Positions 23,352 through 44,029 of a DNA stretch of 51,249 nucleotides are shown in pieces. Where the stretch lies: the NCBI GenBank assembly GCA_029561465.1, contig JAKQIZ010000086.1, positions 1 through 51,249 of the forward strand, in the 5' to 3' direction. The notes under the pieces are model-generated. The model ran no database searches and had not been told where the DNA came from. It worked only from the letters and a program-made list of their open reading frames with translations. The position numbers and the translations under genes are program-made. The stretch's first letter is position 1; each line of letters opens with the position of its first letter. Origin of the DNA: Deltaproteobacteria bacterium (lineage in GTDB: Bacteria; Desulfobacterota; Syntrophia; Syntrophales; UBA8958).

Positions 23352-23381
23352 TTGACATTCCCCCGAAAAAATCCGTATAAG
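23352..23381 (+). promoter_or_regulatory. Predicted sigma-70 promoter of the tungstate-type locus
   Basis: TTGACA (23352-23357), an 18-base spacer, TATAAG (23376-23381). Transcription would begin near 23388, leaving about 100 bases of leader before the regulator gene at 23486. Confidence 0.6.
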
Positions 23382-23382
23382 G

Positions 23383-23438
23383 CTATCGACTGCCGAGGTG
23401 CGGCGGGTATTCTCTTCGGCCCCGATCCGCGTCGATAG
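23383..23438 (+). promoter_or_regulatory. Inverted repeat around and after the transcription start
   Basis: CTATCGAC (23383-23390) is exactly complementary to GTCGATAG (23431-23438). Between them GCCGA and TCGGC can form an inner 5-bp stem. The outer left arm straddles the predicted +1, so a DNA site for the adjacent HTH regulator is at least as likely as a leader RNA structure. I could not match it to the molybdenum-cofactor riboswitch consensus. Confidence 0.4.
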
Positions 23439-23485
23439 GCAACTACAGAAATGGCGCCGGTCCTTGATAGAGAAAGGTCGTCCCG

Positions 23486-24403
23486 ATGTCGGCCGAGCTG
23501 ATGACCACCAAAGAAGTTGCCAAGTATCTGAATATCAATGACAAACAGGTTTATGCCCTCATCCGGGAGGGAGGCATCCCCGCCAGCCGGGCGACGGGGA
23601 AGTGGCTTTTTCCCAAGCAACTGATCGACGCGTGGATCGAAAGCTCGGCCCGGGAGGGATTGTCCCGGGCCCGCCGGCAGAGTGAAAAGGCGGCCGGCGC
23701 CCTCCTGGCGGCGGGGAGCAACGATCCCCTCTTAGACATCCTCCAGACGGCGATCCGCCGAATCCATCCCGAACTGTACATCTTTTCCGCCAATACGGGC
23801 AGCTCGGAGGGGCTGGCGGCGCTGAACAACGGCTACACGGACATCGCCTGGTCCCACCTCTGGGATCCGGAGACCGGCCGGTATAACACGCCCTTTATCC
23901 CGTCCCGACTGCCCCGGATCGATGCCGTCGTCGTCAACCTCTTCCACCGTGATCTGGGACTGATCGTCGCCCCGGGCAACCCCCTGGGCGTCAGGACGAT
24001 CGGGGACCTGGGAAAGCCGGGGCTGCACTTCATCAACCGTCAGGACGGCTCCGGGACCCGCCTCCTCATCGACTACCATTTACAGCGGGCCGGGGTAGAT
24101 CCGCTCCGGATCGCCGGCTATGAGCGCGAGGTGAGCACCCATCTGGAAGTGGGTCTGGCCGTCCTCTCCCGTCAGGCCGATGCGGGGGTGGCCACGGGTT
24201 CCGTATCCCGCCTCCTCGGACTGGAATTTATCACCCTGGTCCGGGAAAGCTTCGATATGATCCTCGCGAAGGAGACCTATTTCAAGAAGGGGGTTCAGGA
24301 CTTTATCGAGACCTTGAGATCCGACGGCTTCCGCCGGGGGGTAGAGAATCTTGGTCATTACGATTTCCACGCGTCGGGGAAGGTCCTGTTTGCCGTGAAT
24401 TGA
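23486..24403 (+). CDS. HTH transcriptional regulator fused to a binding-protein-like domain
   Basis: 305 residues. Residues ~6-52 are an excisionase/MerR-type winged helix (MTTKEVAKYLNINDKQVYALIREGGIP). Residues ~85-300 form a periplasmic-binding-protein-like ligand domain (PF12727 type), with an oxyanion-loop-like stretch NRQDGSGTRLL that parallels the RGDxSGTH motif of TupA. A MarR/LysR relationship is excluded by the fold order. Such one-component regulators usually sit by molybdate or tungstate transporters, and this one heads the tup locus, 39 bases before the first binding-protein gene. It is therefore predicted to sense cytoplasmic oxyanion and control the locus. Start at 23486 or the in-frame ATG at 23501. 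Confidence 0.88.
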   Translation: MSAELMTTKEVAKYLNINDKQVYALIREGGIPASRATGKWLFPKQLIDAWIESSAREGLSRARRQSEKAAGALLAAGSNDPLLDILQTAIRRIHPELYIFSANTGSSEGLAALNNGYTDIAWSHLWDPETGRYNTPFIPSRLPRIDAVVVNLFHRDLGLIVAPGNPLGVRTIGDLGKPGLHFINRQDGSGTRLLIDYHLQRAGVDPLRIAGYEREVSTHLEVGLAVLSRQADAGVATGSVSRLLGLEFITLVRESFDMILAKETYFKKGVQDFIETLRSDGFRRGVENLGHYDFHASGKVLFAVN

Positions 24404-24442
24404 CCGAGAGGATCGAAAGGGAATTTATTGTTGGAGGGTGAC

Positions 24443-25297
24443 ATGAAAAAAATATCTCTGCTGCTGCTTGCCATCCTCCTGGTCACGCCGCCGGGGACAG
24501 CCGTTGCCAAGGACAAGAAGTTTATCCTCATGGCTTCCACCATCGGTCCCATTGATGCCGGGATTGTCGGCGCGCTGGAGGATAGTTTTGAGAAAGAGAA
24601 AGGAATCCGGGTCCGTCATGTCGGCGCCGGAACGGGAGCGACGTTGAAAATCGCCCAGAAGTGCAATGTCGACCTGGTAATGGTCCACGCCAGGTCTTTG
24701 GAGGAAAAATTTGTTGCCGATGGTTATGGCACCGAGCGGATTCCCCTGATGTACAACGACTTTGTCATGGTGGGACCGGCAGCGGATCCCGCGGGGATCA
24801 AAGGCCTGAAGAGCGCCGCGGAGGCCATGCGGAAAATCGCCGCCGCCGGGGCGCCGTTCGTTACCCGGGGCGATAAATCCGGAACCCATGTAGCCGAAAT
24901 GGAGCTTTGGAAAGCCGCCGGGATCAATCCCGCCGGAACCTGGTATGTAGTTTTTGAAAAAGGCTCGGAAGGAAACGTGGCAACCCTGCGTTTCACCGAT
25001 CAAAAAAGGGCTTACACCGTTATCGACCGGGCTACCTTTCTGGCCCTGCAAAAAGAAGTGAAACTGGCCGTCCTCGTGGAAGGGGATGAGGCCCTGCTGA
25101 ACCGCATCACCTTAATTCCGGTGAATCCCGGGAAATGTCCCCAGGCCAACCTCAAAGAAACGATGATCTTCGTCGATTGGCTCACGGATCCGAACAAGGG
25201 ACAGCGGTTCATTGAGACCTTCGGGGTGGAAAAATACGGGAAACCCATGTTCTTCCCCGATTCGATTCCCTGGCGGCAGCGTGGCGGCGGCAAATAG
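24443..25297 (+). CDS. Divergent TupA-like periplasmic oxyanion-binding protein
   Basis: 284 residues with a signal peptide (residues 1-22, ending AVA). The overall plan matches TupA: RHVGAGTGATLKIAQKCNVDLVMVHA, NDFVMVGP, TRGDKSGTHVAEMELWKAAGI and a C-terminal TFGVEKYGKPMFFPD. The first ligand loop differs: where the canonical protein downstream has TTTSTQDTG, this one has ASTIGPIDAG (residues 31-40), losing several hydroxyl donors. The arginine of RGDxSGTH is kept. It may bind another anion or have lower affinity. ATG 24443 follows GGAGGGTG. It lies between the regulator and the porin. Confidence 0.85.
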   Translation: MKKISLLLLAILLVTPPGTAVAKDKKFILMASTIGPIDAGIVGALEDSFEKEKGIRVRHVGAGTGATLKIAQKCNVDLVMVHARSLEEKFVADGYGTERIPLMYNDFVMVGPAADPAGIKGLKSAAEAMRKIAAAGAPFVTRGDKSGTHVAEMELWKAAGINPAGTWYVVFEKGSEGNVATLRFTDQKRAYTVIDRATFLALQKEVKLAVLVEGDEALLNRITLIPVNPGKCPQANLKETMIFVDWLTDPNKGQRFIETFGVEKYGKPMFFPDSIPWRQRGGGK

Positions 25298-25371
25298 CGG
25301 TCGCCAGGACAGATACTTGGCACAACAACCCGCTGTAGGTAATAATGGGTAATAAGATTAGGAGGTTAAAA

Positions 25372-26982
25372 GTGAAAAAAGGTCTATTTATTTTACTTGT
25401 CCTGTTCCTGACGGCCTTGGCCGCCGCTCCCGCGGTGGCGGTGGACGTCAAGTTCAGCGGCAGCTACTACACGCTAGGCTGGTATGTGGACAACCCGTCG
25501 CATCTGGACAAGAACGAGGCGCCGGGGGCTGCCTCGTGGGGCACCGTGGACGCCTCACAGGCCAATTACGCCAACCGGGACGCCCGGAGTCGGCGGGGCG
25601 CCGATGCCTTTTACAGCCAGCGGTTTCGTTTGCAGACGGAATTTCAGGTAGTGGAAGGTTTGAAGCTCGTTACCCGCTTCGACGCCCTGGAGAAGCGCTG
25701 GGGTGATCAGGCCTGGGCGGGGGGCACGGGTGAGACCCAGTCCCGGACCCAGACGCCCCAGGGATCTCTCGATCCCAATGGGGTGAGACGCGGCGCCGCC
25801 AATCCCAAGGCTCAGGAAAACCTGGAATGGGAACGGGCCTATCTGGATTTCAACGTCCCCTTCGGCAAGTTTCAGGTGGGTTACATGCAGTTTCTTACCT
25901 GGGGAACGACCTTCCTGGACACGACCCTGACTTCCGCCGGCATCCGCTACCTTTACAGCCGCGGGCCCTGGCAGGCGGTGGCGGCCATCGAGAAGCGAGG
26001 GGAGTGGGTAGGCCTCAACGCGAACAACATCGGCGTGGCCAATGACGCCGACCGGGATGTGTACGATTTTGGGGCCATCTATAAATTCAAACCCGGCGAG
26101 GCGGGCATTCTCTATCAATACAGCCGGAGCGGCCAGAACAAATGGGAGCAGGGCAACGGTTATCTGACGCAGCTCAACGGCCTGTATCCCTATGCGAAGG
26201 CCACCTTCGGGAAGTTGTTCCTCGAAGGAGAGGCAATGTACGCCTTCGGTGATCTGCGATCTTACGAGAGCACCAGTGCGGCCCCCACGGGCGGTACCGC
26301 GGGCACCAACCGTCCGGGTGGGGTGAGCATCAACAATCCTGCTCAGAACGTGGGCGTCCAGGCTTTCGGGGCCTATGTCCATGGTAAGTACGATCTGAAG
26401 CCGGCCTATGTGGGGATAAAGTTCGCCTATTTGAGCGGTGACGACAACTCCAACAGCGACAAAGCGACGGGATCTATCATGCAGTCCCAGCAGATGAACC
26501 GGAGCTTCTATCCCACCCTGATCCTCTGGAACGATGACTACCAGAACAACATGGGAAACATCCAGGGCAACGTGCCCGCAGGGGCGACGGGAGCGAATCG
26601 CCGCACCGGCCAGAACTACACGATCAGCCAGAATATGGACAATGTGTGGTTCTATCAGATCTATGCCGGCGTCAAACCGATGCCCAAGATGAATCTGATG
26701 ATGGCCCTGTCCTACGCCACGGCGGACAAGAAACCGAAGAGCGACGTGGGCGCCGTGGGTTCCCCGGGTTACTACAACCCGGCGAACCGGGTGACGGAAT
26801 TCGTTTCAGACAAGTACGGGACGGAGCTCGACTTCATCGGCACCTACAAGATCTACGACAACCTCACCTACATGATCGGCATCGGCTATCTGTGGACGGG
26901 GGACTATTTCAAAGGTTACGACAACGACGCCAAGATCAGGGACAACTACCTTCTTTCGCATAAGTTGACCCTGAACTTCTAA
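25372..26982 (+). CDS. Outer-membrane porin-like beta-barrel protein
   Basis: 536 residues starting at GTG 25372, with GGAGG six bases upstream. A signal peptide (about 1-24, ending AVAVD) is followed by repeated amphipathic strands: FSGSYYTLGWYV, FRLQTEFQVVEGLKLVTRFDALE, WERAYLDFNVPFGKFQVGYM and YMIGIGYLWTGDYF. The protein ends in LTLNF, with the terminal Phe needed for barrel assembly. Gly/Asn-rich loops lie around residues 290-330 and 375-420. It lies inside the tungstate-type cluster, so it may be a dedicated outer-membrane entry route for the anion; that is an inference from position. The family is not one I can name more exactly. Confidence 0.85.
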   Translation: MKKGLFILLVLFLTALAAAPAVAVDVKFSGSYYTLGWYVDNPSHLDKNEAPGAASWGTVDASQANYANRDARSRRGADAFYSQRFRLQTEFQVVEGLKLVTRFDALEKRWGDQAWAGGTGETQSRTQTPQGSLDPNGVRRGAANPKAQENLEWERAYLDFNVPFGKFQVGYMQFLTWGTTFLDTTLTSAGIRYLYSRGPWQAVAAIEKRGEWVGLNANNIGVANDADRDVYDFGAIYKFKPGEAGILYQYSRSGQNKWEQGNGYLTQLNGLYPYAKATFGKLFLEGEAMYAFGDLRSYESTSAAPTGGTAGTNRPGGVSINNPAQNVGVQAFGAYVHGKYDLKPAYVGIKFAYLSGDDNSNSDKATGSIMQSQQMNRSFYPTLILWNDDYQNNMGNIQGNVPAGATGANRRTGQNYTISQNMDNVWFYQIYAGVKPMPKMNLMMALSYATADKKPKSDVGAVGSPGYYNPANRVTEFVSDKYGTELDFIGTYKIYDNLTYMIGIGYLWTGDYFKGYDNDAKIRDNYLLSHKLTLNF

Positions 26983-27026
26983 GAGCAGGTCCTTTGTCTG
27001 GAACGGTAGAGAATTACAAGTAAAAT

Positions 27027-27061
27027 CCGGGGCGTCGGCAAGCGGCGCCCCGGTTCGTTTT
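27027..27061 (+). terminator. Terminator or attenuator between porin gene and tupA
   Basis: CCGGGGCG (27027-27034) pairs with CGCCCCGG (27046-27053), followed by TTCGTTTT. The interrupted T-run suggests partial termination, so tupABC may be expressed at a different level from the upstream genes. Confidence 0.6.
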
Positions 27062-27155
27062 CGATCGGAAACCGGCCCCAAGTTCGGTGATTAGACAAAC
27101 CCAAAGGGCAGGTCGCCTGCCATCGACATCGAGATTCAATTAAGGAGAAATGGAA

Positions 27156-28031
27156 ATGAAAAGATATGCAAGGATTGCCATTCTGATCGCTGTATACTAT
27201 ACTTTACTCCTTCTGGCCGGAGTCGGCGGCGCCGATGCCGCCCGCAAGGCGCCGGCGAAACAGAAGAACCTCATCCTGGCCACCACGACCAGCACCCAGG
27301 ACACGGGTCTTCTGGATGTTCTGATTCCCATCTTCGAGAAGAAGACCGGCTATTTCGTCAAGACCATCGCCGTTGGTTCCGGCCAGGCCATGACCATGGG
27401 GAGTAAGGGAGAGGCGGATGTCCTGCTGGTCCATTCCCAGGCGGCGGAGAAGAAATTCATGGAGGCCGGCAATGGCGTCAATCGCCGCTTGGTCATGCAC
27501 AATGACTTCATTGTTGTAGGTCCTCCCGCGGATTCGGTGGCCCTCAAGGGAACCAAGAAGGCGACGGAGGGATTCAAAAAGATCAGCGCCGCCAATGCCC
27601 TCTTCGTGTCCCGAGGCGACAATTCCGGAACCCATGCCAAGGAGAAGGAGATCTGGAAGGCCGCGGGCATTCAGCCGGAGGGGCAGAAATGGTACCAGCA
27701 GACGGGACTCGGGATGGGACAGACCCTTAGCGTGGCCGCGGAAAAGAAGGGTTATACCCTTACCGACCGCGGCACCTATCTAGCGCTGAAGAAGAACCTT
27801 GGCATGGATAGCCTCCTCGAGGGGGATGCGGTGCTCCTCAATATCTATCATGTCATCGAGGTCAACCATGCCAAATGGCCCAAGGTGAACGCCGCCGCCG
27901 CCAAGGCCTTTGCCGATTTCATGGTGTCCAAAGAGGTCCAGAAGATCATCAAGACCTTCGGCGTGGCGAAGTTCGGATCCCCCCTGTTCTTCCCCGATGC
28001 CGGCAAGAAGGTGGAAGATCTGGGCAAATAA
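27156..28031 (+). CDS. tupA: Tungstate ABC transporter substrate-binding protein
   Basis: Periplasmic protein that captures tungstate for TupBC. Of its 291 residues, 1-29 are the signal peptide. The mature part begins with the signature TTTSTQDTGLLD (TTTST at 43-47). The second ligand element SRGDNSGTHAKEKEIW supplies the conserved arginine. The C-terminus FGVAKFGSPLFFPDAG fits the family. ATG 27156 is 8 bases after AAGGAG; an ATG at 27150 is too close to it. TupA proteins prefer tungstate over molybdate; this preference is known for the family, not shown here. Confidence 0.92.
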   Translation: MKRYARIAILIAVYYTLLLLAGVGGADAARKAPAKQKNLILATTTSTQDTGLLDVLIPIFEKKTGYFVKTIAVGSGQAMTMGSKGEADVLLVHSQAAEKKFMEAGNGVNRRLVMHNDFIVVGPPADSVALKGTKKATEGFKKISAANALFVSRGDNSGTHAKEKEIWKAAGIQPEGQKWYQQTGLGMGQTLSVAAEKKGYTLTDRGTYLALKKNLGMDSLLEGDAVLLNIYHVIEVNHAKWPKVNAAAAKAFADFMVSKEVQKIIKTFGVAKFGSPLFFPDAGKKVEDLGK

Positions 28032-28204
28032 TCTGTGGGACGCCTTTCATCTGGATATGTCGGCGCGCGAGCGGTTTTAAATCCGCCGCCGCATCCGTTC
28101 GAGCCGGGGGTGGGAGACGGGATGTTTTCAGCCGGTGAAAAAAACCGGCAAAGGGTGGATACTTTCATGTCCGTGGGGATAGCGCCGACGGGGGAGAGGC
28201 GGGA

Positions 28205-28903
28205 ATGGAGATAATACTCGCCGGGATCAAACAGGCCCTCTCCCTCCTGATCAGCTTCGACCCCGAGGTCCTGGCGATCACGTGGCTGTCCCTGAAGGTT
28301 TCGGGGACCGCCACCCTGATCAGCCTGTTTATCGGCATCGGCATTGGCACCGCCGTAGCCCTCTCCTCCTTCCCCGGGCGGCAGATTGTCGTGAGCGTCA
28401 TCAATACGGGGATGGCCCTGCCGCCTGTTGTCGTGGGCCTTTTCGTCACGATCTTTCTCTGGCGCAACGGTCCTTTCGGCTATCTGGAGATCCTCTACAC
28501 GCCCGCGGCCATCATCATCGCCCAGGCCATCATCGCCACCCCCATTGTCATGGGTATCACCCTGGCTGCCATGCAACAGTTGCCCCGGAAGCTTCGGTTG
28601 CAGATCCTGGCCCTGGGAGCGACGCGCTTTCAGATGGTCTGGCTGCTTATCAAGGAGGCCCGACTGTCCCTCATGGCCGCCGTCATGGCCGGCTTTGGAG
28701 GCGTTATCTCCGAGGTCGGGGCCTCCATCATGGTCGGCGGCAACATCAAGGGCTATACCCGTGTCCTGACCACCGCCACGGTCATGGAAACCAGCAGGGG
28801 CAATTTCGATCTCGCCATTGCCCTGGGGGTGATCCTGCTTCTCTTCGCCTTTGTCATCAACCTGGTTCTCACCCGAATCCAGCAGCGGGAACGTCCCCAA
28901 TGA
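28205..28903 (+). CDS. tupB: Tungstate ABC transporter permease
   Basis: 232-residue inner-membrane permease with about five helices and the cytoplasmic EAA loop (LALGATRFQMVWLLIKEARLSLMAAVMAGFG, ~138-168) that contacts the ATPase. The element VNTGMALPPVVVGLFV fits the TupB/ModB-like group. It starts 173 bases after tupA, and its stop overlaps the tupC start (ATGA at 28900-28903), implying coupled translation. A homodimer is expected because only one permease gene is present. Confidence 0.93.
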   Translation: MEIILAGIKQALSLLISFDPEVLAITWLSLKVSGTATLISLFIGIGIGTAVALSSFPGRQIVVSVINTGMALPPVVVGLFVTIFLWRNGPFGYLEILYTPAAIIIAQAIIATPIVMGITLAAMQQLPRKLRLQILALGATRFQMVWLLIKEARLSLMAAVMAGFGGVISEVGASIMVGGNIKGYTRVLTTATVMETSRGNFDLAIALGVILLLFAFVINLVLTRIQQRERPQ

Positions 28904-30222
28904 ACGGCGGATCGATTCTGGAGGGCAGAGACATCCAGGTGCGGCGGGGCGGCCGACTGATCCTCGATGTCGCTTCTCTGAACATCGCGGCGGGAGAGGT
29001 GCTGTCCGTGATCGGGCCCAACGGGGCGGGGAAAACGACGCTCCTTCAGGCCCTGTCGGTCCTCCTGCGGCTCAATCGAGGGGAGATTCGCTTCCGGGGC
29101 GCCCGGATCGGCGTGGATATCACCCCTCTGGATTACCGCCGGCAGTTGGCCATGGTCTTCCAGGAGGCCCTCCTCTTCGATGCGACGGTAACCGCCAATG
29201 TGGCGGCGGGACTTCGGCTCCGCGGGACTGACGCCGGGGAAGCAAAAAGGATTGTCGCCGCTAAGCTGGAGCAGTTCGGCATCAGTTCCCTTCACGACCG
29301 CTCCGCCAAGACCCTCTCCGGTGGTGAGGCCCAACGGACCAGCCTTGCCCGGGCCTTTGCCATTGGGCCGCAGATCCTTTTTCTGGACGAGCCCTTTGCC
29401 GCCCTCGATCCACCCACCCGGGAATCCCTGATCGAAGACCTCAGCCGCATCCTCCGTGAATCGGGCGCCACGGCCATCATGGCCACCCATGATCAGGGGG
29501 AGGCCCTGCGTCTTTCCGACCGGATCGCCGTGATGCATGAAGGGCGGATCGCTCAGATCGGTCCCCCGGTGGAGGTGATGAACCACCCCGTCGATGAGAG
29601 TGTGGCGGCCTTCGTGGGGGTGGAAATGATTCTTGCCGGCCGGGTCGTCCAATACGAACGGGGGACGGCCACCGTGGCCATCACGAATGATGTGGGCCCC
29701 CCGAAGTTATCTTACCCTCGGGGCAATCCTGGCGAGATACTCTCCGGGACCGGAAGGGAGAGAACGGCAGGGGAAGCGCCCGGTGAGAGATCATCGGCCT
29801 CGTTATCATCCGATGGCATGGAGATGCCGCCGGAAGCTACGGGTGGACGGATAGACGGGGAGGGTTCTTGCGTATGGGAAGACGCCGCTGTGATGGGGGG
29901 AAGGCGACGTCCCGCCACCGTGTTTCTGGAGGCCGCGGGAGAGGCGAAAGCAGGGGAGGAAGTGTTCTGCTGTATCCGCCCGGAGCACGTCACCCTCGCC
30001 AGGGGGTTGCCCCCGGGGCGGACCAGCGCTCGTAACTCCTTCCCCGCCGTCATCAACAGGATCATCCCCGCCGGCCCTTTTTACAAGCTGTACCTGGATG
30101 GCAGCCTTCCCCTGTCCGCGTACATAACCGCCCAATCCCTGGAAGAACTGGATTTGCGAATCGGGATGACGGTTACGGCTTCCTTCAAGGCCACCTCCGT
30201 CCATTTGATCCGGCGGGGATAG
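28900..30222 (+). CDS. tupC: Tungstate ABC transporter ATP-binding protein with linker insertion
   Basis: 440 residues. The ATPase domain (1-235) has Walker A GPNGAGKTT, Q-loop VFQEALLFDATV, signature LSGGEAQRTSLARA, Walker B ILFLDEPFAALD and the switch histidine in MATHDQGE. A C-terminal accessory part follows with the RPEHVTLA strand (~358) and a TOBE/Mop-like oxyanion domain (~375-440). Between residues ~265 and ~340 is an insertion rich in Gly, Ser, Glu and Arg with no visible fold, so the protein is longer than most TupC/ModC-like ATPases. The frame is open upstream inside tupB, but the ATGA overlap marks the start. Confidence 0.9.
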   Translation: MNGGSILEGRDIQVRRGGRLILDVASLNIAAGEVLSVIGPNGAGKTTLLQALSVLLRLNRGEIRFRGARIGVDITPLDYRRQLAMVFQEALLFDATVTANVAAGLRLRGTDAGEAKRIVAAKLEQFGISSLHDRSAKTLSGGEAQRTSLARAFAIGPQILFLDEPFAALDPPTRESLIEDLSRILRESGATAIMATHDQGEALRLSDRIAVMHEGRIAQIGPPVEVMNHPVDESVAAFVGVEMILAGRVVQYERGTATVAITNDVGPPKLSYPRGNPGEILSGTGRERTAGEAPGERSSASLSSDGMEMPPEATGGRIDGEGSCVWEDAAVMGGRRRPATVFLEAAGEAKAGEEVFCCIRPEHVTLARGLPPGRTSARNSFPAVINRIIPAGPFYKLYLDGSLPLSAYITAQSLEELDLRIGMTVTASFKATSVHLIRRG

Positions 30223-39395: not shown

Positions 39396-39471
39396 AAAAC
39401 GAGGTAGTGAATTTGCCCCTTGACATAAGGAAATTCTTTCGGTAATTATCATCGCGTAAATCTTGCCAGAC

Positions 39472-39613
39472 CAGATGGGTGTGTGGAAGAGGGGTGCAAA
39501 TCCCCCGCTGCCCCGCAGCCGTAACGGGAACGAAAGCCGGAATGCCACTGTCTCCACCAGGGGACGGGAAGGCGGCGAGTAGGGCGCCCGGAGCCGGAAG
39601 ACCGGCCCATCTG
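39472..39613 (+). ncRNA. Cobalamin riboswitch controlling btuCD
   Basis: Seen elements in order: P1 closed by CAGATGGG (39472-39479) and CCCATCTG (39606-39613), a perfect 8-bp pair; GGTGCAAATCCCCCGCTGCC followed by CCGCAGCCGTAACGGG; the core GCCACTG (39544-39550); GGGAAGGCGGCGAGTAGG; and the B12-box-like GAGCCGGAAGACCGGCC. The btuC ribosome site GGGGGAGGGG begins about 9 bases after P1, so ligand binding probably hides it and blocks translation. Confidence 0.93.
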
Positions 39614-39637
39614 TTTGACCTCGGGGGAGGGGAAGCA

Positions 39638-41475: not shown

Positions 41476-41564
41476 AGAACGGCCGTGCCGTTGTACCGGT
41501 GCGATGCAGCAAGTGGATATTGAGGAAGATGTAAGCATTCTCGAAGATGTAGCCACGGATATTA

Positions 41565-41718
41565 CTTCGTCGGGGGAAGGAAGCCGGTGCAAAGCCGGCG
41601 CTGCCCCGCAACTGTAAGGGGAACGAAAACCGCGGCAGACCACTGACGGCTGGAAGGGCCGCCGGGAAGGCGCGGCGAGTAGGCGTGAGCCCCGAGCCAG
41701 GAAACTTGCCTGACGAAG
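41565..41718 (+). ncRNA. Second cobalamin riboswitch, controlling btuB-tonB
   Basis: P1 is CTTCGTC (41565-41571) with GACGAAG (41712-41718). Between them: GCCGGTGCAAAGCCGGCGCTG, split as GCCGGTGC-AAA-GCCGGC; CCCCGCAACTGTAAGGGG; ACCACTG near 41640; GGGAAGGCGCGGCGAGTAGGC; and a full B12 box GAGCCAGGAAACTTGCC. It is a closer match to the consensus than the first copy and lies just upstream of the TonB-dependent receptor gene. Confidence 0.96.
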
Positions 41719-41725
41719 CGAACAT

Positions 41726-41752
41726 TTCTTTTCTCCCGCGGGGGAAGAAGGA
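41726..41752 (+). promoter_or_regulatory. Possible expression-platform hairpin before btuB
   Basis: Pyrimidine-rich TTCTTTTCTCCC faces GGGGGAAGAAGGA just before the btuB ATG. Their imperfect pairing would cover the GGAGG ribosome site, which suggests that the riboswitch acts on translation. The stem has mismatches. Confidence 0.4.
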
Positions 41753-41758
41753 GGAATC

Positions 41759-44029
41759 ATGAACAGATCGCTGGTTTGGTGGTTTGGTTTGGCGTCGTTG
41801 GTCTTGGTTGCGGCATTGGGGTCCACCCCGGCTTTTTCCTGGGAAGGGGCGCGACGACCGTCGCTACAGATGGAATTCCCGCGGGCGGTCCGGGTCGGGT
41901 TTTTTGATTTAGCGTCGCGCAGCGATGCTGAACCGAAAGCCTCAACACCACTGGAAAATGCGGGTAAAGCAAGCAGCGCGACGGCCGCCGGAGAGAAGAC
42001 GCCCGTTGCGTCGCCCGGAGTGAAAAGCCGGGGGGAGGCGCCGGCCCTCCGCATGGAGGAGGTGGTCGTCACGGCGACCCGGGACTGGGAGGAGGTGCGG
42101 AAGGTTCCCGCTGATGTCTCCGTGATCACCGAGGCGGATATCAAGAAATCCGGGGCGACCTCCCTGGTGGAGGTCCTGGAGAAGCTGGAAGGAATACAGA
42201 TCCGCTCTTACAGCGGCCAGTCCCCCCAGTCCATGGTGGATCTGAGGGGTTTCGGAGGGGAGAACCCCTTCGGCAAGACCCTGGTCCTCATCGACGGCCG
42301 GCGCCAGAACCGCCCGGATATGAGTTCCAACAACTGGTTCCAAATCCCCCTGGGGAGCATCGAGCGGGTGGAGGTGGTCCGGGGGGCCGGTACGGTCCTC
42401 TACGGTGACAACGCCATCGGCGGGGTAATCAACATCATCACGAAGAAGGGCAAGGGCAAACCGGCGGTCACAGTGGCGGCTACGGCGGGCAGTTACGGCC
42501 TCAACAACGAAAGGATCGGCATCACAGGAAGGCAGGATAAGCTGTCCTACTCGGTCAACGGGGAAAACTACTTCTCCTGGGGCTACCGGGAACGCTCGAA
42601 ACTCACCTCCCAGTCCGCGGGGTTCGAGCTCGGATACGAGCTCGGCGAGCATTTCCAGTTATCCCTGGGTATGTCGGGAAACCGCAGCGACTACAATCTC
42701 CCCGGGGCCCTGACCAAGAAGCAGATGGACCAGGACCGCCGCCAGTACCAGCCCGCGACACCGGAAAACTGGACCAACGCCGCCCCGGATGACGACGGCC
42801 GGGACCGGACGGGGCGGATCAACCTGGGGGCTACGGCCGTTCACGAATCCCTCGGGCAGTTGGACCTCCTCTTCGGTTACGGCAGTAATGCCTATGAGTT
42901 CAACATGCCTTCGTGGAATTTCAACTCGTACACCAACACCGATATGGATTCCGTCTCCTTCACGCCCAAGTACACCCTGGAGAAAGGCATCCTCGGTTTT
43001 CAGAACAAACTGACCGCCGGATTGGATTACTATAACGAGCCGTATCGCAAGACCGCGTGGGACAGCCGGGAACGCCAGGTAAAGACGGGCTGGGCGGAAC
43101 TGCGGCGGAAGACGCTGGAGTATTACGTCCGCGACGAATTTTCCCCCTGGAAGCGCCTGATCCTTGCGGCGGGCTATCGGGCCGGGGACACCACCCTCGG
43201 CGGCGACCATACGGACGCCCTGACCCCGGCCAACAGCTTTTCCAATCAGGAAAAACGCCACCCCGCCGAGGCCTGGGAGGGAAGCGCGACGGTCCTGTTG
43301 GGAAAGAAATCCAATCTTTACGGCAAATACGCCCGGATCTACCGGATCCCCTTTCTGGACGAACAGGCCTCTTTCAACGGCTGGGGCGGCGGTTTCTATA
43401 CGAACCTGGAGAAGGAACAGGGGCAGAGCATGGAGGTGGGGACCCTCCTGTACCCCCTGGAAGCCTTGAAGGTCTCCCTGTCGCTGTTCCGCATCGACAT
43501 GGAGGACGAGATCACCTGGAACAACGCCACAAAGCGCAACGAAAACCTCGACCGGACCCGCCACCAAGGAATAGAGGGATCGTTTTCCTGGAATATCAAG
43601 GGGATCGTAACCCTGAACGGACAGTACACCTACCACATGGCGACCTTCGAAGACGGTCAGTACAACAAAAAGGAACTTCCCCTGGTTCCCAACCGGATCA
43701 TGGGGGCCGGCGCCGACATCAAGCTGCCCTTTTCCTTCACCCTCCGCCCGGAGGTCCGCTACGTGAGCGACTGCTATCTCTCGGGCGATTACGACAACAA
43801 TGCGGAGAAACTTTCCTCTTTTATCGTCTATAATCTTTTCCTCTTCTTCGAGCGACGGCAGCCCCTGGGGAAACATTTCCTCAACATCCGGGCCTTCGCC
43901 GCCGTAGAAAACATAAACGGTGAAAAATATGCGGGTTTCGGTACGGACAACGACTCCTGGGGCGGCTTGAACACTTACTATCCCATGCCGGAGCGAACCT
44001 TCAAGGGCGGGCTGTCCCTGGAATTTTGA
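41759..44029 (+). CDS. btuB: TonB-dependent outer-membrane cobalamin receptor
   Basis: 756 residues. Signal peptide at 1-27. An unusual hydrophilic Ala/Pro-rich extension covers ~28-98, then the TonB box EEVVVTATRD (101-109). The plug domain follows (SVITEADIKKSGATSLVEVLEKLEGIQIR ... VRGAGTVLYGDNAIGGVINIITKKG). The 22-strand barrel ends in LSLEF with a terminal Phe. Cobalamin as ligand is inferred from the riboswitch and the btuCD/tonB neighbours; the barrel could accept other corrinoids. GGAGG lies 5 bases before the ATG. Confidence 0.92.
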   Translation: MNRSLVWWFGLASLVLVAALGSTPAFSWEGARRPSLQMEFPRAVRVGFFDLASRSDAEPKASTPLENAGKASSATAAGEKTPVASPGVKSRGEAPALRMEEVVVTATRDWEEVRKVPADVSVITEADIKKSGATSLVEVLEKLEGIQIRSYSGQSPQSMVDLRGFGGENPFGKTLVLIDGRRQNRPDMSSNNWFQIPLGSIERVEVVRGAGTVLYGDNAIGGVINIITKKGKGKPAVTVAATAGSYGLNNERIGITGRQDKLSYSVNGENYFSWGYRERSKLTSQSAGFELGYELGEHFQLSLGMSGNRSDYNLPGALTKKQMDQDRRQYQPATPENWTNAAPDDDGRDRTGRINLGATAVHESLGQLDLLFGYGSNAYEFNMPSWNFNSYTNTDMDSVSFTPKYTLEKGILGFQNKLTAGLDYYNEPYRKTAWDSRERQVKTGWAELRRKTLEYYVRDEFSPWKRLILAAGYRAGDTTLGGDHTDALTPANSFSNQEKRHPAEAWEGSATVLLGKKSNLYGKYARIYRIPFLDEQASFNGWGGGFYTNLEKEQGQSMEVGTLLYPLEALKVSLSLFRIDMEDEITWNNATKRNENLDRTRHQGIEGSFSWNIKGIVTLNGQYTYHMATFEDGQYNKKELPLVPNRIMGAGADIKLPFSFTLRPEVRYVSDCYLSGDYDNNAEKLSSFIVYNLFLFFERRQPLGKHFLNIRAFAAVENINGEKYAGFGTDNDSWGGLNTYYPMPERTFKGGLSLEF

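Follow-up and report, generated by a model that had tools for sequence, protein, structure and literature searches.

The stretch of DNA analysed here (the window) is a 51,249 nt contig, one of the 194 that make up a draft genome of 2.62 Mb from the order Syntrophales, which is referred to as G000 in comparisons. It contains what is probably a tungstate-type uptake locus, handling oxyanions of tungsten (W) or molybdenum (Mo), that has been extended at its outer end. Six intact open reading frames (ORFs), all on the forward strand between positions 23486 and 30222, encode a regulator, a divergent TupA-like binding protein (SBP1), an outer-membrane barrel, TupA, TupB and TupC. The best explanation, which as a whole we consider to have a probability of about 0.6, is that a single TupBC pump would be served by both TupA and SBP1, with porins having been recruited repeatedly to such loci. 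What is new here rests most firmly on the SBP1 clade itself and on the finding that tup loci have recruited two porin families. A preliminary description, made from the sequence alone, had recognised the six-gene layout on one strand, including the divergent TupA-like protein, a barrel of 536 residues and a canonical TupA; all of the ORFs have been verified, and the size of the barrel agrees with a GTG start at 25372. The features of the locus, with the basis of each in brackets, are:

23352..23381, + strand: promoter-like TTGACA-18-TATAAG 5' of the regulator gene (direct reading, consensus match only)
23486..24403, + strand: regulator of 305 aa, with an HTH_17 DNA-binding domain and a PBP_like ligand domain (Pfam)
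24443..25297, + strand: SBP1, a divergent TupA-like binding protein of 284 aa, with STIGP replacing TTTS (Pfam, NCBIfam, alignment)
25372..26982, + strand: porin (outer-membrane barrel) of 536 aa from GTG, with a distant likeness to DESULF_POR1 (NCBIfam, prediction)
27027..27053, + strand: terminator-like GC hairpin with a poor T-tract, separating the porin gene from tupA (terminator scan)
27150..28031, + strand: TupA, a TTTS-type binding protein of 293 aa (Pfam, NCBIfam, alignment)
28205..28903, + strand: TupB permease of 232 aa (NCBIfam)
28900..30222, + strand: TupC ATPase of 440 aa, with a TOBE domain (Pfam, NCBIfam)

The intergenic gaps are 39 bp between regulator and SBP1, 74 bp between SBP1 and porin, 167 bp between porin and TupA and 173 bp between TupA and TupB, whilst the TupB and TupC genes overlap by 4 bp. 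The GTG start of the porin gene is closely preceded by AGGAGG, a good ribosome-binding sequence.

The adjacent A, B and C genes identify a TupABC importer, with homologues in the same order as in the systems containing D. alaskensis TupA (PDB 5my5) and Geobacter TupA (3lr1). All have the TTTS and SRGDxSGTH motifs in TupA, the latter being SRGDNSGTH in the window when aligned with 5my5 and with relatives; however, the locus studied here additionally holds SBP1, a porin and the regulator. PMC5517513 assigns the TTTS motif, His59, Arg118, Thr124 and Asp170 to the tungstate-binding site of D. alaskensis TupA. With this numbering transferred by alignment, the TupA of the window has the TTTS, His, Arg, Thr and Asp residues of that site, and its ligand would be tungstate, judging from the sequence. 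Two AFOR_C-family genes in the same genome also count in favour of a tungstate-type locus. The NCBIfam TupA model is matched at 252 bits, below its cut-off of 400; TupB scores 168 bits against the TupB equivalog model (cut-off 320) and 273 bits against the broader permease model NF038017, above the cut-off of 100. ModABC, the molybdate importer, belongs to the same transporter superfamily and has an oxyanion ligand, but the ModA of this genome is encoded elsewhere (G000:C134). Near ModA lies an open frame of 698 codons that contains a PBP_like domain, perhaps a MoeA-PBP fusion. At 440 aa, TupC is longer than its counterparts in G003 and G007 (398) and in many other members of the order (about 360-370), the extra residues sitting between the ATPase and TOBE domains.

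SBP1 matches the Pfam family PBP_like_2 (109 bits) and scores 180 bits against the NCBIfam TupA model, again below the cut-off of 400. Its fold is predicted with confidence (pLDDT 91.8), the best match of the model among solved structures being TupA 5my5 (TM 0.80/0.91, 40% identity). It lacks the TTTS loop characteristic of TupA proper, having STIG followed by proline at the equivalent position. The conservation of residues was surveyed in 43 aligned sequences, comprising the copy in the window and those from 42 of the 61 SBP1 loci identified in named genomes: T33, I34, G35 and P36 are invariant (43/43), position 32 is serine in 40 and threonine in three, and so without exception are H82, R142, T148 and D195, the aligned counterparts of the remaining ligand residues named for TupA. 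As TTTS has given way to STIGP whilst the His, Arg, Thr and Asp are unchanged, the residues of one lobe have been retained and the TTTS loop exchanged. Furthermore, the QTGLGMG segment of TupA corresponds to a conserved EKG..GN-type segment with a three-residue insertion. The loop and the retained ligand residues are also present in all 24 SBP1 sequences of the order. Owing to this fixed STIG-P in place of TTTS, we classify SBP1 as a TupA-like sister clade. A tree built from 132 rows unites the 60 labelled as SBP1 by profile score in a single clade with an SH-aLRT value of 100 and a long stem. The loop reads ATGSPGELG in a third subfamily of TupA-like proteins, which occurs at loci L255, L256, L249, L250, L164, L182 and L064; in L255, L256, L164, L182 and L064 it is found in tandem with a TTTS- or STTS-type TupA.

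The distribution of SBP1 was studied in 60 genomes of the order, including that of the window, in a sample of 148 genomes from the phylum and in named genomes, where stretches were ranked by their similarity to SBP1 and the best 80 of 592 provided the 61 loci (L103-L163). Within the order, 43 genomes have a match to the wider family and 24 have a full SBP1 (56-100% identity), with G055 adding a piece at a contig end; TupA is immediately 3' in 22 of these 25 loci, the porin intervenes in two (G000 and G002) and the contig ends in one. In G059 (L062), a short C-terminal SBP1 match immediately 5' of TupA is apparently the remnant of a lost gene. Family matches are found in 90 of the 148 phylum genomes, with SBP1 scoring at least 508 bits in six and all other members at most 284 bits; a TupA-family gene adjoins SBP1 in all six, with the porin intervening in G000. 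The holders in the named set are Desulfobacterota-type lineages, Bacillota, Holophagaceae, a Nitrospirae draft, Synergistota and one Methanocorpusculum, which, from the organism names among the best 80 of 592 stretches, we take to be anaerobes.

TupA is encoded in the same stretch at 46 of the 61 named loci; none was seen at 15, two of which (L132 and L160) end at a contig edge, leaving 13 orphans. Every one of the 13 genomes with orphans encodes a further member of the TupA family as well as a TupB-like permease, hence SBP1 has not been observed to replace TupA or to carry its own permease; the genome of L132 yielded no other TupA-family gene. TupB-like permeases were present in all 20 genomes scanned, with one strong match (at least 172 bits) in 19 and two in G076, and no second TupBC pair was detected beside SBP1 in the mapped loci of the order or the named loci. 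The proposal in the preliminary description that two captures share one BC pump is therefore probably right, as far as gene content can indicate. Twenty proteins encoded near SBP1 were chosen by eye and then scanned for family membership. Mo/W metabolism accounts for seven of them: MoaE (L107 and L124), MoeA-type proteins (L124 and L157), MoaA (L157), a TOBE protein (L156) and a molybdopterin-binding protein (L141), with an XDH-type Mo enzyme at L141 constituting an eighth such neighbour. Others include histidine kinases (L143 and L129), a Porin_O_P protein (L123), and an AraC regulator and glutamate dehydrogenase (L151); in Geomonas silvestris (L129), the orphan SBP1 is flanked by two TonB-dependent receptor genes, with a PAS histidine kinase nearby.

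The porin matches no Pfam family and scores 51 bits against the outer-membrane homotrimeric porin model DESULF_POR1 (NF033939), not reaching the cut-off of 250. All six porins of the alignment containing it (A3) match this model weakly and the prediction is strand-rich, although the protein of the window is well below the cut-off and is located at tup genes. The monomer model is poor (pLDDT 47.8), and the similarity that it shows to AlgE, MOMP and OprD-type barrels was used solely to designate the protein a beta barrel. Counting by hand, the family occupies about 75 places in 48 of the 60 order genomes, about 67 of which are away from tup, where contig ends may hide some linkages. The eight places beside SBP1 or TupA are in G000, G002, G003, G005, G006, G052, G025 and G037. 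Of the order's 25 SBP1 loci, eight thus have a family porin no more than 1.5 kb away, always on the same strand. Three gene orders exist within the genus: SBP1-porin-TupA (G000 and G002), porin-regulator-SBP1-TupA (G003) and porin-SBP1-TupA (G005 and G006). G007 has a tup locus with no porin, whilst the porins of G001 (at a contig end) and G004 are away from the locus. The order regulator-SBP1-porin-TupABC, conservation of which was proposed earlier as a check, was found only in G000 among the mapped loci, G002 having SBP1-porin-TupABC.

An association between porin and tup genes beyond chance is borne out by the counts. The family lies within 6 kb of 8 of 28 SBP1 loci compared with 1 of 52 TupA-only loci (Fisher p 0.0007), the phylum part of these sets being 40 loci drawn from the 90 genomes with family matches regardless of porins; in the order by itself, the figures are 8 of 25 and 0 of 13 (p 0.022), with 13 of 15 TupA-only rows used and the two omitted being split halves at contig ends. 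As the rows are related, both p-values are optimistic. Porin linkage was entertained as a mark of SBP1 loci exclusively, which holds for this family but fails once Porin_O_P is counted. A tup-specific porin clade was also rejected, since the linked copies are scattered over the tree (nine changes, with 90 of 500 shuffles equally low). The porin genes at L183 (G004) and L254 (G173) are either interrupted by an early in-frame stop or split into two ORFs, through decay or assembly error.

Porin_O_P (PF07396), comprising the anion-selective OprP and OprO, is likewise found immediately beside tup genes, though in lineages other than that of the window, whose porin is not a member of this family. 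Immediately 5' and on the same strand, Porin_O_P genes are present at the named SBP1 loci L110 (at about 50 bp), L116 (two in tandem), L123 and L127, and at the TupA-only loci L220, L228 and L247; the genomes of these seven loci have one to three L123-like porins each, whether or not fragments are counted. In the phylum sample, where positions relative to TupA-family genes were compared by hand, there are 59 Porin_O_P places in 47 of the 148 genomes, and eight of them (G082, G100, G104, G139, G173, G190, G201 and G218), spanning five families, lie within 0.5 kb of a TupA-family gene on the same strand, against a chance expectation of about 0.1 by our own arithmetic. Two more (G148 and G180) are within 3 kb. 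The layout is SBP-SBP-porin-SBP in G190 and G218, where some frames for binding proteins (SBP) are short or at contig ends, and SBP-SBP-SBP-porin-TupB in G133 and G096, the porins of which match Porin_O_P at 52 bits; such repeated groupings of several binding proteins with a porin imply that the layout is not an accident of the locus studied. Overall, when both families are counted, a porin lies no further than 1.5 kb from SBP1 at ten of the 61 named loci (six of the locus porin's family and four Porin_O_P), L103 being G002 again and four of the porins (L111, L112, L121 and L163) being on the opposite strand. Within the same distance, a Porin_O_P-type porin is present at 5 of the 37 loci in the phylum set that have TupA only, of which L220, L228 and L247 helped build the search model and L233 and L246 are weak matches (68 and 59 bits).

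From gene content, homology, conserved residues and the recurrence of both additional genes, all read from the sequence, we infer the following route. The porin would provide passage for the anion across the outer membrane, TupA and SBP1 would each capture ligand in the periplasm, and both would hand it to the single TupBC pump, with the HTH-PBP regulator sensing the anion and setting expression. The rebuilt loop in lobe A of SBP1 may confer a different affinity, or a preference for a different W or Mo species. A variant of this, overlapping it in its odds, is that SBP1 binds the same tungstate, adding capacity or a different affinity with no new ligand. It is a credible alternative, if well short of even odds, given the co-occurrence of SBP1 with TupA and the retention in 43/43 sequences of the His, Arg, Thr and Asp aligned with TupA's ligand residues; however, the fixed STIGP loop and the EKG..GN-type segment with its insertion are beyond what drift would be expected to produce. 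Were there a second ligand, molybdate, suggested in the preliminary description, is a less likely candidate because a separate ModA exceeds the family cut-off in 20 of the 24 genomes with a full SBP1, G000 included (G025 has one slightly below and G005, G018 and G057 have none), which argues weakly, on gene content, against it. The titles of cited papers refer to the formation of thiotungstate in sulfidic waters. A much bolder idea, which we regard as the least probable of those raised here, is that SBP1 constitutes a separate, widespread family of anaerobe binding proteins capturing W or Mo species that TTTS-type TupA handles poorly, such as the thiotungstate or thiomolybdate of sulfidic water, and feeding the shared TupBC, the recruited porins completing a dedicated two-membrane tungsten route.

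The porin may alternatively be a general pore that landed beside tup genes by chance, the functional unit being SBP1-TupABC only. Many family copies adjoin acs- and etf-like genes and a near orthologue in G004, 86% identical, adjoins pst-like genes (all recognised by eye); PMC13101534 proposes that an acs-linked porin exports acetate; and the tup-linked copies are not one clade. We nevertheless consider pure chance unlikely, in view of the linkage at 8 of 25 SBP1 loci in the order, the three gene orders within one genus and the presence of a second porin family immediately beside tup genes in members of five families within the phylum sample. The best explanation is that tup loci have repeatedly drawn porins out of a general stock, with more than one family contributing, and that a porin is no fixed component of the system. 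Judging from the distribution of its family, the porin is not dedicated to tup. Somewhat more doubtful still is the proposal that SBP1 is mainly a periplasmic sensor, which binds the anion and either passes a signal to a kinase in the membrane or modulates TupBC, being in the tup operon for co-expression. The orphan SBP1 of Holophagaceae L143 precedes a CHASE histidine kinase (Pfam), L145 and L149 are similar by layout, and the PAS histidine kinase of Geomonas L129 follows SBP1, the response regulators behind such kinases having been recognised by eye alone. Yet none of the six proteins of the locus matches a kinase family, TupA accompanies SBP1 at most of the named loci and the regulator already carries a ligand domain of its own.

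Several observations weigh against two binding proteins sharing one pump with recruited porins. SBP1 is absent from most of the TupA-bearing genomes in the phylum, being present in 6 of the 90 with family matches, and the remnant in G059 suggests that it can be lost; orphan genes exist, some adjoining sensor kinases, and the majority of the scanned neighbours are unrelated to Mo or W. Both TupA and SBP1 miss the NCBI TupA cut-off. The porin family is mostly located away from tup, its linked copies do not form one clade, and five of the eight linked loci in the order are from one genus, so that related rows inflate the apparent independence behind the p-values. The preliminary description had itself regarded occurrence of the porin and first binding protein independently of tupABC as contrary to a combined system, and this is partly what is seen, as both also occur apart from tupABC. 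A final point is the hairpin between the porin gene and tupA. It is among 10 sites found by the terminator scan, compared with 8.0 expected from shuffling, and is kept in G002, hence a single end-to-end transcript is not assured; SBP1 and the porin might be produced separately from the pump, or in excess of it.

The regulator matches HTH_17 at 56 bits and PBP_like at 213 bits, its PBP part scoring 209 bits against the PBP region of PRK14498 (cut-off 534). In G002, no regulator was found across the 18 kb examined around SBP1-porin-TupABC. The promoter-like sequence at 23352-23381 is absent from the output of the promoter scanner, which demands T as the final base. An inverted repeat 5' of the regulator was dropped as a candidate operator, each half recurring in just one other of 99 upstream regions, and an Rfam scan gave zero matches inside the tup locus.

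The crossing of the outer membrane by tungstate and molybdate is usually ascribed to nonspecific diffusion. If two porin families have indeed been recruited repeatedly to tup loci, this step would be specific, and testable as such. A comparison of SBP1 and TupA from one operon could also reveal how binding proteins distinguish between W, Mo and perhaps the thio forms of these in anaerobes that depend on tungsten enzymes. In searches of the open-access literature, no earlier description of the SBP1 clade, or of a tup operon containing a porin, was recognised; PMC2996986 names a porin but makes no tie to tup.

Elsewhere in the window, two cobalamin riboswitches are found at 39460-39624 and 41530-41727 (Rfam, 74.7 and 86 bits). 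The second is followed by a TonB-receptor-like ORF at 41759-44029 (756 aa), which probably encodes a vitamin B12 receptor.

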